A stretch of 37,930 nucleotides of DNA, taken from the NCBI GenBank assembly GCA_029858255.1, contig JAOUFJ010000022.1, positions 1 through 37,930 on the forward strand, written 5' to 3'. The notes beneath the pieces are model-generated. The model was given only the letters and a program-made list of their open reading frames with translations. It was not told the origin of the DNA and did not search any database. Origin of the DNA: a candidate division WOR-3 bacterium. GTDB lineage: Bacteria > Hydrothermota > Tepidihabitantia > SM23-42. A program made the position numbers and the translations under genes. Below are positions 10,869 to 17,433 of this stretch, piece by piece; within the stretch, counting starts at the first letter, position 1; each line of letters opens with the position of its first letter.

Positions 10869-11492
10869 CTACAATTTACTCCGCACAATCTCTTTGACCC
10901 TCATCAGTCGGGTCAAGTCTCCCCGTTCAATTTCGGACAACTTGAGATTGATGAATTTGATCGTCTCGTCTATCGAAGGAATGAGGATGTATTCCAGAGC
11001 ATTGACCCGCCGCCGTGTTTTTTCGATCTCGTTTGCAAGTAACTCAAGTGTTTTCTCCAATTCAGCCAGTTCCAGGAGGCGCGAGATGAGCTGGTCTATC
11101 TTTAGCAAAGCAAGATCAAGATCGCCTGACGTCGATAGAAATCCGTAGCCTATTAGATGACCAGATATTTTCTTAGAGAATTTGGGGATCTTCAAATTCA
11201 GGATCCGCTCTGTGCTATGCTCAATGTCTATGCTCTTGGATACCGCAAGCAGTGCCTCATCTGTGGCCTTAGGTGCTTGTTTACTCGAGGCAAAATAGAA
11301 GTAACTAAACGCGCTCCTCAACTCTTCTTCTATTCTCAATCTTAACTCTCGTATCCGGTAGATGAACTCAAGTATCCGTCGCATCAATTCGTCCTGCTTA
11401 TCTTTCAGCAGTTTATGCCCGCGCCGCGCGACATTGCCGCGTCTCTTTAGATACAGCAATTGCATCCTGGTGGGTGGTATATCGAGTTTCAT
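10869..11492 (-). CDS. ntpD: V/A-type ATPase subunit D (central stalk)
   Basis: This 207-aa protein matches subunit D, the coiled-coil rotor shaft of the V1/A1 sector. The N-terminus (PPTRMQLLYLKRRGNVARRGHKLLKDKQDELMR) is diagnostic. Long helices follow, with the family's C-terminal R-R-x-N-A-L-E-Y-I-L-I-P (residues 154-164). It follows ntpB by 12 bp in the usual order A-B-D. Also called AtpD in V-type nomenclature. Confidence 0.95.
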   Translation of the reverse strand: MKLDIPPTRMQLLYLKRRGNVARRGHKLLKDKQDELMRRILEFIYRIRELRLRIEEELRSAFSYFYFASSKQAPKATDEALLAVSKSIDIEHSTERILNLKIPKFSKKISGHLIGYGFLSTSGDLDLALLKIDQLISRLLELAELEKTLELLANEIEKTRRRVNALEYILIPSIDETIKFINLKLSEIERGDLTRLMRVKEIVRSKL

Positions 11493-11504
11493 ATTCTACC
11501 TATC

Positions 11505-12905
11505 TCATCCGGTCACAGCAGCTTTTTCTGAAGGCTTTGCATCGTAGTATCTTTTCAGATATTCGTCACGCACTCGTTTCATCTCGCCACGCGGCACCAT
11601 GCGCAGTAATTCCCAGCCGAGATCGAGTGTTTGCTCGATAGTCCGATCTTCATACTCGCCCTGTGATATGTAACGTTCCTCATATTCCTGAGAAAACTTC
11701 AGATAGATCTTGTCCATATCCGAAAGCGCCGCTTCACCGAGGATCACGGCGAGCTCGGCCGCTTCCTTACCCCTGGCGTAGCACGCGATCAATTGATTGA
11801 ACAGATCGGCGTGATCCTCCCGGGTCTTACCCTTGCCAATACCCTTATCTTTCAACCTTGACAAGGACTGCTGAACATCGACAGGCGGCGATACTTTTTT
11901 CCTGTAGAGACCGCGTGAGAGAATGATTTGACCTTCAGTGATATAGCCAGTCAAATCCGGGATCGGATGGGTCTTATCGTCCTCTGGCATAGAGAGAATC
12001 GGGATCAAGGTGATCGAACCTTTCTTTCCTTTTATCCGGCCGGATCGCTCATAAATACTGGCAAGGTCAGTATACAAGTAGCCTGGGTATCCCCTCCGGC
12101 CAGGTATTTCCTTACGCGCGGCCGAAATTTCCCGCAATGCCTCGGCGTAATTGGTCATGTCTGAGAGAACTACTAAAATATGCAGCCCCTTAGTGAACGC
12201 GAGGTACTCGGCAACGGTAAAAGTAACCCGCGGTGTCGAGATCCTTTCAATTGCCGGGTCGTCGGCAAGATTGAGAAACAGCACGACCCGCTCCAGGGCG
12301 CCTGATTTTGTGAAATCCTGGATAAAGAAATTCGCCTCTTCAAAAGTAATCCCCATCGCTCCGAAGACAACGGCGAATTCCTCCTCTTTCCCCAATACTT
12401 TCGCCTGCCGGGCAATCTGTGCAGCAACCCTATTGTGAGGCAGTCCAGACCCGGAAAATATCGGCAGCTTTTGCCCACGCACCAGGGTGTTGATCCCGTC
12501 TACAGAAGAAATGCCAGTTTGAATGAATTCATTCGGGTAATCACGCGCAGTGGGGTTGATAGGCGCACCGTTGACATCAAGTATCGCTTCTGGAATTATT
12601 GAAGGACCACCGTCTTTCGGACGGCCCAAGCCGTCAAAGATCCGTCCCAGCATTTCTTCTGAAACACCTATGCTGAGGGTCTTACCCAGGAAGCGAACCC
12701 GACAATTCTGCACGTCGATACCGGTTGATCCTTCAAAGATCTGAACGAGTGCCTTGTCTCTATCAACCTCGAGGACGCGACCCCTTTTCTTAACGCCGGT
12801 GCCGGTGTATATTTCGACGAGCTCTTCGTATTTCGCTCCGCTGACTCCTTCAACAAGCAGAAGCGGGCCGGCAACATTAGATATGCTACTGTATTCCTTA
12901 ATCAT
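11505..12905 (-). CDS. ntpB: V/A-type ATPase subunit B (non-catalytic)
   Basis: This 466-aa protein is the regulatory nucleotide-binding subunit that alternates with A in the V1 hexamer. Signatures are the N-terminal barrel ([17 protein letters not shown]) and [17 protein letters not shown], where a Walker A would be in subunit A. The helical region has [34 protein letters not shown]. Length is normal. ATG overlaps the ntpA stop by 4 nt. It ends in a short Lys/Glu/Ala tail. Confidence 0.96.
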
Positions 12906-14794
12906 TTTCTATCCCCTTGTCCCTTTTTCTCCTTGTCTCCCTGTCCCTCAGTCTCCTTGTCTTTGACGGTCTCCGTTTCTCCCTGTCTCCCCTTCTCCGC
13001 TTCACCGATTCTCCCATTCTCCGTTTCTTTCTGTTTTGCGTCTCCCTTGATCATTCGGTCGAAGTCCGCAGTCAATTCATCCTTAATCCCATCAATTACG
13101 TCGAGCTTAGATTCTTCAAGATATTTCATCCTTGCTATCTTATCCCGAATATCCATCTTCACGATATCATCGAAAGCAACACCGCGCTTAAGAGCGTCAC
13201 GCGCCTTATTGTAGTGGAACATGCATACGGATAGCATTTTATATTGCTTCTTAAGCGATGCATAAGTATCAATCTCATGAAAAGCATTTTGATGCAGAAA
13301 ATCTTCACGGATCGAACGCGCCCCTTCGAGAATGAGACGGTCCTCCGGAGAGAGCGCATCGACGCCAATAAGCCTGACTATTTCCTGTAATTCCGCTTCC
13401 TGCTCCAGCAATTTCATGGCCTCTCTTGATAGCTCTGTAAAATCCTTCGCAGTCATTTTATTCACATCATCAGCGATATCATCGATGTAGAGCGAATACG
13501 AATTCAACCAGGAGATTGCCGGAAAATGTCGCTGATATGCGAGTTTATCCTCGAGACTCCAGAACACCTTAACAACCCTCAATGTCGCCTGCACAACCGG
13601 ATCGGAAAGATCACCACCAGGAGGCGACACCGCACCAACTACACTGAGTGCACCTTCCCTATCGGGTTTCCCCAATGTCTTCACGCGACCTGCCCTTTCA
13701 TAGAAAGAACTTACTCGCGCCGCAAGATACGCTGGATATCCTTCTTCACCCGGCATTTCCTCGAGTCGTCCAGAAATCTCTCGCATCGCCTCTGCCCATC
13801 GCGATGTCGAATCGGCCATAACGGCAACAGAATAGCCCATATCCCGGAAATATTCGGCGATCGTAATACCAGTATAAACAGACGCCTCACGGGCGGCCAC
13901 GGGCATATTGGACGTATTGGCGATCAATACCGTCCTTTTCATGAGCGCTTCTCCAGATCGCGGGTCTTTGAGTTCCGGAAATTCGAGCAAAACATCGGTC
14001 ATTTCATTACCTCGCTCACCACAACCGATGTACACAATAATCTCTGCATCCGCCCACTTGGCGAGTTGATGCTGTATCACCGTCTTTCCCGATCCAAAAG
14101 GACCAGGACAACATGCCGTGCCTCCCTTGGCTATCGGGAAGAACGTATCAATGACCCGCTGCCCTGTCGACAGCGTGAGCGACGGAGCCAATCTTTCTTT
14201 ATAGCCCCTGGGAATCCTGACCGGCCAACGGTGCATCATGGTCAAATCGTGCTTTTCCTTGTTATGTTCAAGCGAACATATAACAGCGTTTACGAGAAAA
14301 TCACCTTCTTTTATTTCCTTTATCTTACCCTTCATGCCAGGCGGCACAAGGATCTTGTGCAGCACTAACTTGGTCTCCTGCACTTCACCGATTATGTCTC
14401 CGGGTCCAACTTCAGTCCCCGACTTGACGGTCGGCTTGAAATGCCACTTCTTGTCGCGCTCCAGGGCGGGCACCTCGATACCCCGTGTGATGTAATCGCC
14501 GGTATTTTCCTTAATAATATCCAGCGGCCGCTGGATACCGTCAAAAATCGATTCGATAAGGCCTGGTCCCAGTTCGACAAAGAGGGGTTCATCAGTCATG
14601 TAAACCGGCTCGCCAGGACCGATTCCCGACGTATTCTCATAGACCTGAATTGACGCCAGGTCTCCGGCAAGACCGACGATCTCACCAACAAGTCGTTCGT
14701 CGCTCACACGCACCACGTCGTACATCTTGCTCCCTGTCATCCCCTTTGCCACGACCAACGGACCAGATACCTTAGTGATCTCGCCTTTCCTCAT
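12902..14794 (-). CDS. ntpA: V/A-type ATPase subunit A (catalytic)
   Basis: Subunit A binds and hydrolyses or makes ATP in the V1/A1 head. It has an N-terminal beta barrel, the family-specific bulge domain (about 110-190), Walker A GPFGSGKT (231-238) and GERGNEMTD. The signature [31 protein letters not shown] follows. At 630 aa it is longer than usual. From about residue 583 a 48-residue tail rich in Gly, Glu, Lys and Gln is encoded by a purine-rich repeat (see 12905-13048). It overlaps both ntpF and ntpB by 4 nt (ATGA). Confidence 0.96.
12905..13048 (-). repeat. Purine-rich low-complexity repeat forming the 3' end of ntpA
   Basis: On the minus strand this stretch is made of degenerate units like GGAGACAAGG, GGGACAGGGAGAC and GGAGAAACGGAGAC. 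It encodes the extra hydrophilic tail of subunit A. Such units are known as dispersed intergenic repeats in several bacteria. That it invaded the gene end here is inferred. Confidence 0.65.
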
Positions 14795-15114
14795 CTTTCC
14801 TCCAAGAATATATCAGCACCTACTGCCTTTTTTATAACTCCCCTGATTCTCTCGATCGCCACTTTTGTCTTGCCACGCCCCGATGGTATCGGTATTAAAC
14901 AAGGAAGCGTCTCTGTTCGGTATTTTGATAGAACATCACTCAACTCTTCAATGAATTCTTCAGTAAAAAGAATGATCTTGGCTCCTTCTTTGATCAAGCC
15001 TTCGACTGTAGCCGCACAATCTCCTTCCTTGACATAGACCACCCTCGCACCGGTCGCAAGAAATGGCATCACAGTTTCACGTTTACCCACGATCGCTAAC
15101 GCATTACCAGACAT
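14791..15114 (-). CDS. ntpF: V/A-type ATPase subunit F
   Basis: This 107-aa protein has the subunit F layout: an N-terminal strand with [17 protein letters not shown], a middle strand KIILFTEEF, and P-L-I-P-I-P-S-G near residue 80. It is a small stalk subunit that couples the head to the membrane rotor. It overlaps ntpC by 11 nt and ntpA by 4 nt. Confidence 0.92.
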
Positions 15115-16018
15115 CTGGAATACTCTCCTTCAGGTCCTCAACCGAAACCTCGTTCAATTTCCCCCAATAGACCTGCCGCAATTTTGTTATTTCGCCCATC
15201 TTGAATTTGTAGTAGGCAAAGAGTGGCTCGACTCCGAATGTCATATGCCTGGCTTGCGCCAGGTAGCCAAGTTTGTATTCCTCGTTCAGTCTCTCAAGGC
15301 GGAGAAAAGAATTTCTGTCTTCAAAGTACGCACCACCCTTCTCGACCATAGATGCGTAAGGGGTATTGAAAAAATTGCGCCCGAGCTGGTCCTGCGCAAC
15401 GTCGAGATTGCCCATAAAGAACTCCAGTTTCAAACCTCCCCATGGCAGGTAGATCTGCTTAAAAATCTCCCGTTTATCTTCAAATTGTCTGGCTCTGAAA
15501 AAATTGCGGACATTTTCTAATTCAAAATACATTTCAAAAAAACCCTGGAAGAATGGTGCAAAAGCCGCGGCTTCATATAAATGCTTGCAGAGTATGCGAT
15601 CGAGATTAGTCGACAACACAAACGGATCTTTATCAACCACAAACCTGGCCACTTCATCAAGGACCTCAGACCATGACTCCACGGTATCCAAATCCTGTGC
15701 GTAGAGTAACTCCTCACCACCCTCCTTGAGTTTCACCTTCAGATTGTGAAGCTGTTCGGGCCAATCAACGAAATTTCTGACCTCTTCGGTGATGCAAAAC
15801 CGGTTAAACAAACAACGCACGGAATTTTCTTGGGATTCAAGATTATCATTGATATCTTGCTGCCCCACATACGGCGTGTCAGAAAGAATCGTATTGAAGC
15901 TGCCGTAATCGGCAGCGATCAAACGGTCGAAATGCCCCCTGGTCAAGAGCCTCGCTTCGAGCGCCCTTATGATGCCATTTACATATGCGTATCTTGTATC
16001 CCCAGTACCCTTGATCAT
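15104..16018 (-). CDS. ntpC: V/A-type ATPase subunit C (V-type subunit d homologue)
   Basis: This 304-aa mostly helical protein begins RYAYVNGIIRALEARLLTRGHFDRLIAA, the typical subunit C N-terminus. It ends with a family-like L-F-A-Y-Y-K-F-K-M-G-E-I-T-K-L-R-Q-V-Y-W-G-K segment. It forms the funnel between the central stalk and the membrane ring. It overlaps the preceding 93-aa gene by 4 nt (ATGA). The genes for subunits E, I and K, which usually precede C in this type of operon, are not here. Confidence 0.92.
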   Translation of the reverse strand: MIKGTGDTRYAYVNGIIRALEARLLTRGHFDRLIAADYGSFNTILSDTPYVGQQDINDNLESQENSVRCLFNRFCITEEVRNFVDWPEQLHNLKVKLKEGGEELLYAQDLDTVESWSEVLDEVARFVVDKDPFVLSTNLDRILCKHLYEAAAFAPFFQGFFEMYFELENVRNFFRARQFEDKREIFKQIYLPWGGLKLEFFMGNLDVAQDQLGRNFFNTPYASMVEKGGAYFEDRNSFLRLERLNEEYKLGYLAQARHMTFGVEPLFAYYKFKMGEITKLRQVYWGKLNEVSVEDLKESIPDVW

Positions 16019-16296
16019 TTCGATTCCACTATTTTAATGATATCAAAATTCTCGTCCAAAGTCACCAGCAGGATCCGTTCAATAGGTATTTCATCTGCGG
16101 TCCTCACTGTTATCTCGAATTTTAATCGATAAATACTTTTGAATTGCTTGGGCACTCCCATATCGAGTTTCTCATATATCGCATCCTGCGGCTTGACGGT
16201 CCTCTCGGATACTTTCGGCTCAACACCTTTGAATTCTGGATATTGCGCGACAATCTCTTCCTTAATTCTTTCAATATGCTTGGGGTCGATCAGCAT
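16015..16296 (-). CDS. 93-aa protein of unknown function at the head of the V-ATPase run
   Basis: This is a small soluble acidic/basic mixed protein without a signal peptide, membrane helix or cysteine. The first half looks helical (HIERIKEEIVAQYPEFKGV). The second half has two beta-type stretches (FKSIYRLKFEITVRT and RILLVTLDENFDIIKIVES), which could form a small alpha/beta or cystatin-like fold. It overlaps the C25-like gene by 7 nt and ntpC by 4 nt, so it is almost surely co-translated with both. I do not recognise a family. Its place suggests a partner or regulator of the C25-like protein or of the ATPase. Confidence 0.75.
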   Translation of the reverse strand: MLIDPKHIERIKEEIVAQYPEFKGVEPKVSERTVKPQDAIYEKLDMGVPKQFKSIYRLKFEITVRTADEIPIERILLVTLDENFDIIKIVESK

Positions 16297-17351
16297 ATCA
16301 GCCCCGCCTTCTGAGGCGGTCTCACCCTCAATGTAGGATCGCCATATAGGACGAACTGTAACAGGGTTTTTGTGTCATCGTCATCGAGAAAACCGTGCCG
16401 GCGCAATGATTTGCGTGCGAAATCAAGCTTCGCATTTCTCAAACTCTCACCCAGCGTGTGACCCTGCTGCAGGTATTCAAAGAAGTATTTCACAAGGAGA
16501 TCGGCCTCGCTCGAAGGCGGCTGTGCAGGCCCGTACGCGATAGTTGTAGAACCGCAGAAACCTGCCACCTCAGGTTCAGCCAGGAATTTCATGCTAATTG
16601 CATTATCCTGCGTTTTCTCAATAATATACGCGCCATAGCACGACTCGGAAGCAACAATACCAGCTGAGCCCACCACATTTTCTGGACCCATTGCCACCGG
16701 ATAACTAGCACCTTCCTGCCCGTACCAGTTTGCTGACAATTTGCTGCCATGGACATTGAAATATAGATAATCTTTCTTCTGCAGCCATGCTTTGTCGAAT
16801 TTGTCTTTCGTGACCGGTGGTGTACACTCCAGCTCCTCAGGCTCACCTATTGGCCGGTAAACGTTCTCCGATGACCTTTGCCAGACTCTGGCTGTCAGCC
16901 CGAAGGATTTGTCATGTCGTGACACAACTTTATTCAATTGCTGGACCATAAAATCACTGTTTCCACTATCCGGGATACGTGAGCATGCTCGTTCGGGGAT
17001 GACGTAATTATCATCGCGCGAGGCATACGGATTATCAGATAATACACTTTCATCTGCATCATCACAGGGATTCTCCAGGCGAAAGAAAGGTATCACCTCA
17101 TCGCCTCCCAACAGCAGGAGAAAATCGAAATCACCCAATTTCTTCTCAAAATCCGAAACATATTCTCTTATTGCCTCAGCATCCCTTGCCACGGGTTCAA
17201 TCCCGTATTCATTTGGAGCATCATAATAGCAAAATACCGGTTCATATATCTTCCGCGACTCAACGTATTCATTTAGTGCTTTCTCTAAGGGGCGGATATC
17301 CCTGATTCGTTCATGCAGCGCCTCTTTGCCGCTCAGAATCAGCATCCGCAT
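16290..17351 (-). CDS. Cytosolic C25 (gingipain/caspase-fold) peptidase-like protein
   Basis: This 353-aa protein follows the C25 catalytic-domain pattern. FDFLLLLGGDEVIPFF (75-90) and SDNPYAS (105-111) come first, then ERACSRIPDSG. YLYFNVHGS provides the probable catalytic His201 and SESCYGA the probable Cys238. EVAGFCGSTT comes next, TLGESLRNAK (299-308) after it, and FVLYGDPTLRV lies near the end. Known C25 enzymes are secreted with a signal peptide, a propeptide and a sorting domain. None of these is present, and the protein starts directly with MRMLILSGKE, so it should be cytoplasmic. It is the first gene of the V-ATPase run, has a leaderless-type promoter and overlaps the 93-aa gene. 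Whether it cleaves proteins, and after which residue, cannot be told. Confidence 0.78.
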   Translation of the reverse strand: MRMLILSGKEALHERIRDIRPLEKALNEYVESRKIYEPVFCYYDAPNEYGIEPVARDAEAIREYVSDFEKKLGDFDFLLLLGGDEVIPFFRLENPCDDADESVLSDNPYASRDDNYVIPERACSRIPDSGNSDFMVQQLNKVVSRHDKSFGLTARVWQRSSENVYRPIGEPEELECTPPVTKDKFDKAWLQKKDYLYFNVHGSKLSANWYGQEGASYPVAMGPENVVGSAGIVASESCYGAYIIEKTQDNAISMKFLAEPEVAGFCGSTTIAYGPAQPPSSEADLLVKYFFEYLQQGHTLGESLRNAKLDFARKSLRRHGFLDDDDTKTLLQFVLYGDPTLRVRPPQKAGLIC

Positions 17352-17356
17352 TGGTC

Positions 17357-17384
17357 ATTATACTAAAATTCACAGCGAAGTCAA
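17357..17384 (-). promoter_or_regulatory. Promoter of the C25-like/V-ATPase operon, leaderless type
   Basis: On the minus strand: TTGACT (17379-17384), 16 bp, TATAAT (17357-17362), then 5 nt to ATG 17351. It diverges from the tRNA-Pro promoter; 21 bp separate the two -35 boxes. Confidence 0.82.
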
Positions 17385-17405: not shown

Positions 17406-17433
17406 TTGACTTTAGGTCCTTGCCATGTATAAT
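17406..17433 (+). promoter_or_regulatory. Promoter of tRNA-Pro
   Basis: TTGACT (17406-17411), 16 bp, TATAAT (17428-17433). The mature tRNA 5' end is 10 nt downstream, so the primary transcript would have almost no 5' leader to trim. Confidence 0.82.

Follow-up and report, generated by a model that had tools for sequence, protein, structure and literature searches.

A predicted cytosolic gingipain-family peptidase and its conserved 93-residue partner, encoded ahead of V-ATPase genes in a candidate division WOR-3 bacterium

The gingipains RgpB and Kgp, peptidases of the C25 family, combine a two-subdomain caspase-like fold with a His-Cys catalytic dyad and, to our knowledge, those gingipains that have been characterised work extracellularly or on the cell surface. 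Gingipain propeptides are N-terminal, comprise about 200 aa and are cleaved. When isolated, they inhibit the cognate enzymes in trans in vitro, with a Ki of 12 nM for RgpB and with non-competitive kinetics (PMC3677877). Self-inhibition by blocking of the S1 pocket is common in clan CD and includes Arg126 of the RgpB prodomain, a basic residue inserted in S1, and the C-terminal domain of legumain (PMC4357240). The same Pfam family also contains the type IX sortase PorU. Separase and CHAT are neighbours in fold, and the MALT1 paracaspase has an acidic residue two positions before the catalytic Cys (PMC4357240), but these three differ from the protein described here in domain architecture and regulation (securin, CRISPR, dimerization). 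Among the papers searched, we found none on cytosolic C25 proteins or on links between C25 proteins and V-ATPases.

The locus analyzed here belongs to a 37,930-nucleotide stretch of a WOR-3 (Stahlbacteria) genome, hereafter the window, in which genes for a C25 protein, a 93-aa protein (p93) and V-ATPase subunits follow each other on the minus strand in the order C25-p93-ntpC-F-A-B-D (Table 1). The C25 gene overlaps the p93 gene by 7 nt (16290-16296), which in turn overlaps ntpC by 4 nt (16015-16018), so that the tight overlaps reported in the initial annotation are confirmed by the ORF coordinates. Genes resembling those for the membrane part of the V-ATPase (I, K and E-like) are located on a contig other than that of the ntpCFABD sector (C4:84743-88303 of the window genome; L180:6744-10304). 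The position of the -10 element relative to the C25 start codon, together with the conservation of the same TTGAC[AT]-N16-TATAAT-ATG layout in those relatives from the window's own family (f1) that have a complete start, implies that the message would be leaderless, with C25 as its first gene; in the sister family (f2), the gaps are slightly different. Elsewhere in the window, as well as in relatives, further sites show a similar promoter-to-ATG spacing, and a second similar promoter is divergent from the first (17406-17433 on the plus strand versus 17357-17384 on the minus strand). Immediately upstream of C25 in the window is a divergent tRNA-Pro gene, present there also in six of the scanned relatives, and beyond it are genes that, from reading of the sequences, we take to be sucD and sucC.

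Table 1. Features of the C25-p93 locus and the adjoining V-ATPase genes in the window
Feature	Position	Strand	Basis
C25 gene: predicted cytosolic (gingipain-fold) cysteine peptidase, 353 aa	16290..17351	-	ORF, Pfam C25, AF2 + Foldseek to Kgp/RgpB
C25 His201 codon	16749-16751	-	
C25 Glu236 codon	16644-16646	-	
C25 Cys238 codon	16638-16640	-	
p93 gene: 93-aa partner protein	16015..16296	-	adjoins C25 in 24/24 close relatives; cross-phylum family alignment; structure model
p93 Lys93 codon	16018-16020	-	
ntpC (V/A-ATPase subunit C)	15104..16018	-	Pfam vATP-synt_AC39 E=6.9e-25; conserved order
ntpF (V/A-ATPase subunit F)	14791..15114	-	assigned from operon position + conservation
ntpA (V/A-ATPase catalytic subunit)	12902..14794	-	ORF + relatives
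ntpB (V/A-ATPase subunit B)	11505..12905	-	relatives' loci
ntpD (V/A-ATPase subunit D)	10869..11492	-	relatives' loci
Promoter-like TTGACT-N16-TATAAT, sigma-70-type, near-consensus	17357..17384	-	-10 ends 5 nt before C25 ATG

Judging from its sequence and predicted structure, the C25 protein is a cytosolic gingipain-family protease with a caspase fold and an intact dyad. The Pfam model Peptidase_C25 (PF01364) matches only the last third of the protein (E=5.7e-11; 42.7 bits against a cut-off of 23), whereas the full-length AlphaFold model (pLDDT 86) resembles gingipains over both subdomains: the best Foldseek matches are gingipain K (4rbm, E 4.9e-13, TM 0.66) and RgpB (4ief/1cvr, TM 0.67-0.69), followed by CHAT, separase and caspases. 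The predicted catalytic residues are His201 (NVHG) and Cys238 (ESCYG), as numbered in the initial annotation; this dyad is invariant in all 24 close relatives, and the motifs N[LVI]HG and E[ASC]C[YF]G, including the Glu two positions before the Cys (Cys-2), are present in each of 92 distinct peptidases. Of the observations that the initial annotation had set beforehand as speaking against its reading, neither a predicted structure lacking a caspase-like fold nor loss of the catalytic residues in orthologues was seen. Unlike RgpB and Kgp, the protein lacks an Ig domain and, in agreement with the earlier description, a signal peptide, N-terminal prodomain and sorting domain; the ORF encodes the peptidase domain alone and cannot be extended (open frame of 354 codons). 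No hydrophobic segment was found at the N-terminus (maximum 12-residue Kyte-Doolittle mean of 0.70 in the window protein, median of 0.78 in 92 relatives); a single exception among the relatives has a signal-peptide-like N-terminus.

The C25 protein and the gingipains share an aromatic residue on the loop after the Cys (Tyr273, near RgpB Trp284 by our reading) but differ around the putative specificity pocket. The S1 acid of RgpB, Asp163, has no evident counterpart in the C25 alignments, and the Glu at Cys-2 takes the position of Gln184 in caspase-7 and Asp462 in MALT1, both of which are located in S1 (PMC4357240). This Glu suggests a basic P1 and is an indirect hint that C25 may be an Arg/Lys-specific protease. 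The 2.7-Mb window genome contains 15 further C25 matches, mostly within large multi-domain open frames; these proteins share the Pfam family with the window protein but were not retrieved with it as the query, and one tested C25 domain among them matches PorU.

The most consistent feature of the locus is the pairing of C25 with p93. An orthologue of C25 was detected in 24 of the 60 other genomes searched (53-83% identity), each time with p93 as the gene that comes next, so that the arrangement is not due to chance; the records of these relatives are labelled candidate division WOR-3 or Ca. Stahlbacteria (taxon labels are given here as in the records), nearly all are MAG-derived, and gene starts were set mechanically. 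Among 147 genomes of the phylum, C25 of this type is present in 42 and p93 in 43, with both genes in 41, neither in 103 and a single one in 3 (Fisher p about 1e-32, uncorrected for shared ancestry); the genomes with both include three in which the two genes are on different contigs. The three exceptions are a C25 fragment at a contig edge (G123), a false p93 match (G127) and a genome that is 77% complete (G076). The C25 and p93 distances are correlated (Spearman 0.66 over 60 pairs), as expected for co-inheritance. Thus, the close association of the peptidase with the 93-aa protein proposed in the initial annotation holds well beyond the window, and the stable unit is C25 with p93, not C25 with the V-ATPase.

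One scan of genome contigs yielded C25 relatives whose records bear the labels WOR-3, Cloacimonadota, Desulfobacterota, Eisenbacteria, Chloroflexota, Methanosarcinales/Methanothrix, Altarchaeum and Methylarchaceae. Outside Chloroflexota, p93 follows C25 at a distance of a few nucleotides at most loci, among them WOR-3, archaeal, Desulfobacterota and Eisenbacteria ones. Elsewhere in the phylum, the pair resides in operons that, by sequence reading, are presumably those of sucC-sucD-citrate synthase or mnmG. In the loci labelled Cloacimonadota, C25 has no adjacent p93; in L084, L086, L089 and L095, where C25 likewise lacks an adjacent p93, the genes that come next resemble an ECF sigma-factor gene and encode a probable zinc-finger anti-sigma factor, respectively. 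At L082, the Methanosarcinales protein is extended at its N-terminus by a segment that no Pfam model matches; the protein of L085, which is Methanothrix-like, contains PPC domains. L085 is the sole record labelled Aminicenantes, which we did not count as a host because the p93 in this record is nearly identical to those of the Methanothrix records, so that the contig is probably misbinned.

The cross-phylum alignment indicates that p93 is a real protein family. No Pfam or NCBIfam model matches it, and a fold search with its moderately confident model (one helix and four beta strands, pLDDT 77) yielded no significant relative in the PDB. A profile for PepSY/peptidase propeptides gave one weak match among 24 members (E 0.016) and none for the window p93; matches of the p93 search at L167-L169 (E about 1e-4) were discarded as false given that the family motifs and the C-terminus are missing from the alignment. 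The C-terminus of p93 lies at a fixed position. The last residue is K, R or H, preceded by S, in the large majority of the members (E-S-K in the window), and Asn (TGN/SGN) in a clade of archaeal and Desulfobacterota proteins; in nearly all proteins with a recognized Gx(I/V)K motif, the C-terminus comes either 10 residues (50 proteins) or 9 residues (11 proteins) from where that motif begins. The ATGA overlap with ntpC in family f1 restricts the last p93 codon to NNA, which may explain part of the pattern in that family, but the fixed end is also present where no ntpC follows and no gene overlaps, and 32 fused p93-like domains likewise end in S-K/R/H.

This fixed end, together with the invariant Glu at Cys-2, leads us to propose, tentatively and at somewhat less than even chances, that C25 and p93 form an ancient two-component module of intracellular proteolysis in which p93 is the cognate regulator acting in trans, with its last residue plugging S1. 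Under this scheme, C25 would be a clan CD endopeptidase that is soluble, competent for catalysis and synthesized with no N-terminal prodomain; its predicted cleavage sites follow basic residues or, perhaps, Asn for the archaeal clade. The p93 protein, which would be made from the same mRNA, would bind C25, and its terminal Lys, Arg, His or Asn would occupy S1 like a product, much as the gingipain prodomain inserts Arg126, so that the enzyme stays inactive as long as p93 is neither displaced nor consumed. By analogy, we consider the C-terminal plug the best single reading of the p93 end because the RgpB prodomain and legumain block S1 and separate gingipain propeptides inhibit in trans. Similar to these propeptides, p93 would be a dedicated cognate inhibitor but it is much shorter, is separately translated and shows no detected sequence relation to them. 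The non-competitive kinetics indicate that plugging of S1 is not the whole story even for the gingipain propeptides. The only C25 columns that separate the Asn-ending from the Lys/Arg-ending p93 groups are 221, 300 and 332, none of which is an obvious S1 residue, and the Cloacimonadota-labelled C25 proteins without an adjacent p93, along with the lack of a PDB relative of p93 and of an evident counterpart to RgpB Asp163, count against the proposal. The kind of role suggested for p93 in the initial annotation, inhibitor or substrate, remains the most plausible class.

A somewhat unlikely alternative, if still the strongest competitor, is that p93 activates C25, helps it to fold, or serves it as an exosite or targeting partner. 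Near-obligate pairing and fusion fit any stable partner, and neither sequence nor the PDB fold search links p93 to a known inhibitor; but where a fixed basic or Asn end occurs beside a peptidase that has an acid at Cys-2, a ligand of the active site is the simplest interpretation.

Specific control of the V-ATPase, whereby C25, held by p93, would cleave or mature a subunit (ntpC in the first place) or uncouple the ATPase under stress, appears distinctly less probable. In family f1, the pair precedes ntpC-F-A-B-D in every genome with a long enough unbroken contig, the 4-nt overlap joins p93 to ntpC, and one promoter stands ahead of all the genes; furthermore, in the outgroup genome G027, the only ntpC found adjoins C25-p93 (L057:2544-4734) although ntpF-A is on another contig. 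The next gene after ntpC in the G027 operon encodes a membrane protein, MscS-like by sequence reading. In f2, by contrast, the pair is separate from the V-ATPase operon, which in G023 and G024 begins with ntpC, preceded by a separate promoter-like sequence. No ntpA or ntpC orthologue was found in G025 and G061, both of which have the pair; conversely, G024 and most class members have a V-ATPase but not the pair, and an ntpA gene turned up in almost every genome tested, whether or not the pair was there. No V-ATPase genes were found beside the archaeal, Chloroflexota, Desulfobacterota and Cloacimonadota-labelled loci, nor beside the sucC-sucD-citrate synthase and mnmG loci of the phylum. The apparent absence of the pair in G002 and the broken ntpC in G012 were rejected as losses, these MAGs having N-filled scaffold gaps.

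Given that ntpC is kept with the pair in f1 and G027 but apart in f2, its link to the pair is real in this class, not universal, and we rejected the V-ATPase as a general partner of C25 outside one lineage. The third contrary observation named in the initial annotation, lack of a conserved link to V-ATPase genes in relatives, was thereby made for all but this lineage. The tie to the V-ATPase claimed in the initial annotation thus stands for one WOR-3 family, with the adjacency to the complete ntpC-F-A-B-D set confined to it and ntpC alone retained in G027; of the cytosolic C25 protein regulating this enzyme, the predicted location is retained, whereas regulation as a general function is not, and is possible as a local use only. 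In most other lineages the pair does not stand ahead of ATPase genes, so that p93, rather than the ATPase, is the probable working partner of the protease. Under the proposed two-component module, the leaderless promoter of the pair would in f1 also drive ntpCFABD, resulting in co-expression of protease and ATPase sector, with the basic job of the module independent of the ATPase.

The Chloroflexota loci are organized differently. C25 carries a p93-like domain as a C-terminal fusion, many members contain N-terminal TPRs, and many loci encode a second, free p93 1.5-3.7 kb downstream; at L107:11471-13548, a free p93 homologue sits immediately behind an ftsZ-like gene and close to an mraZ-like one. 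Directly upstream of C25, 34 loci encode a giant TPR protein (e.g. L101:929-9509, L107:3-9557), which at some loci has an N-terminal NACHT/P-loop domain: a NACHT domain matches in L101 (E 2.2e-11), and P-loops are present in seven loci. By sequence, the giant NACHT/TPR protein and the C25-p93 fusion look like an NLR-protease pair. It is conceivable, albeit unlikely, that the module represents an ancient form of regulated intracellular caspase-like proteolysis common to bacteria and archaea, with the terminal residue of p93 plugging S1, that is wired to NACHT/TPR proteins in Chloroflexota in the manner of an apoptosome. Participation in a stress or conflict (cell-suicide) pathway, to which these TPR-associated loci point most clearly and with which CHAT and separase as fold neighbours are in keeping, is quite improbable: no PADLOC model of a known anti-phage defence system matches the window pair, the pair is found elsewhere in presumed housekeeping operons (sucCD/citrate synthase, mnmG, V-ATPase), and it is conserved through whole families in one copy per genome. 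Least credible of all is a transpeptidase or ligase, akin to T9SS PorU or the legumain-type ligases of clan CD (PMC8491156), that would process or conjugate the p93 C-terminus: the P1-like end, small size and exact C-terminus of p93 recall a modifier, but its model is not a beta-grasp, we saw no gene for an activating enzyme at the loci, and nothing follows the terminal residue, hence there is no bond to cleave for energy.

A widespread cytosolic branch of the C25 family with a near-obligate partner in bacteria and archaea would be a testable prokaryotic counterpart of the regulated proteolysis performed by caspases and separase, and p93 would be a new protein family of predicted peptidase regulators. 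In the WOR-3 lineage with the pair ahead of the ntp genes, the locus may additionally point to a local link between proteolysis and a rotary ATPase.
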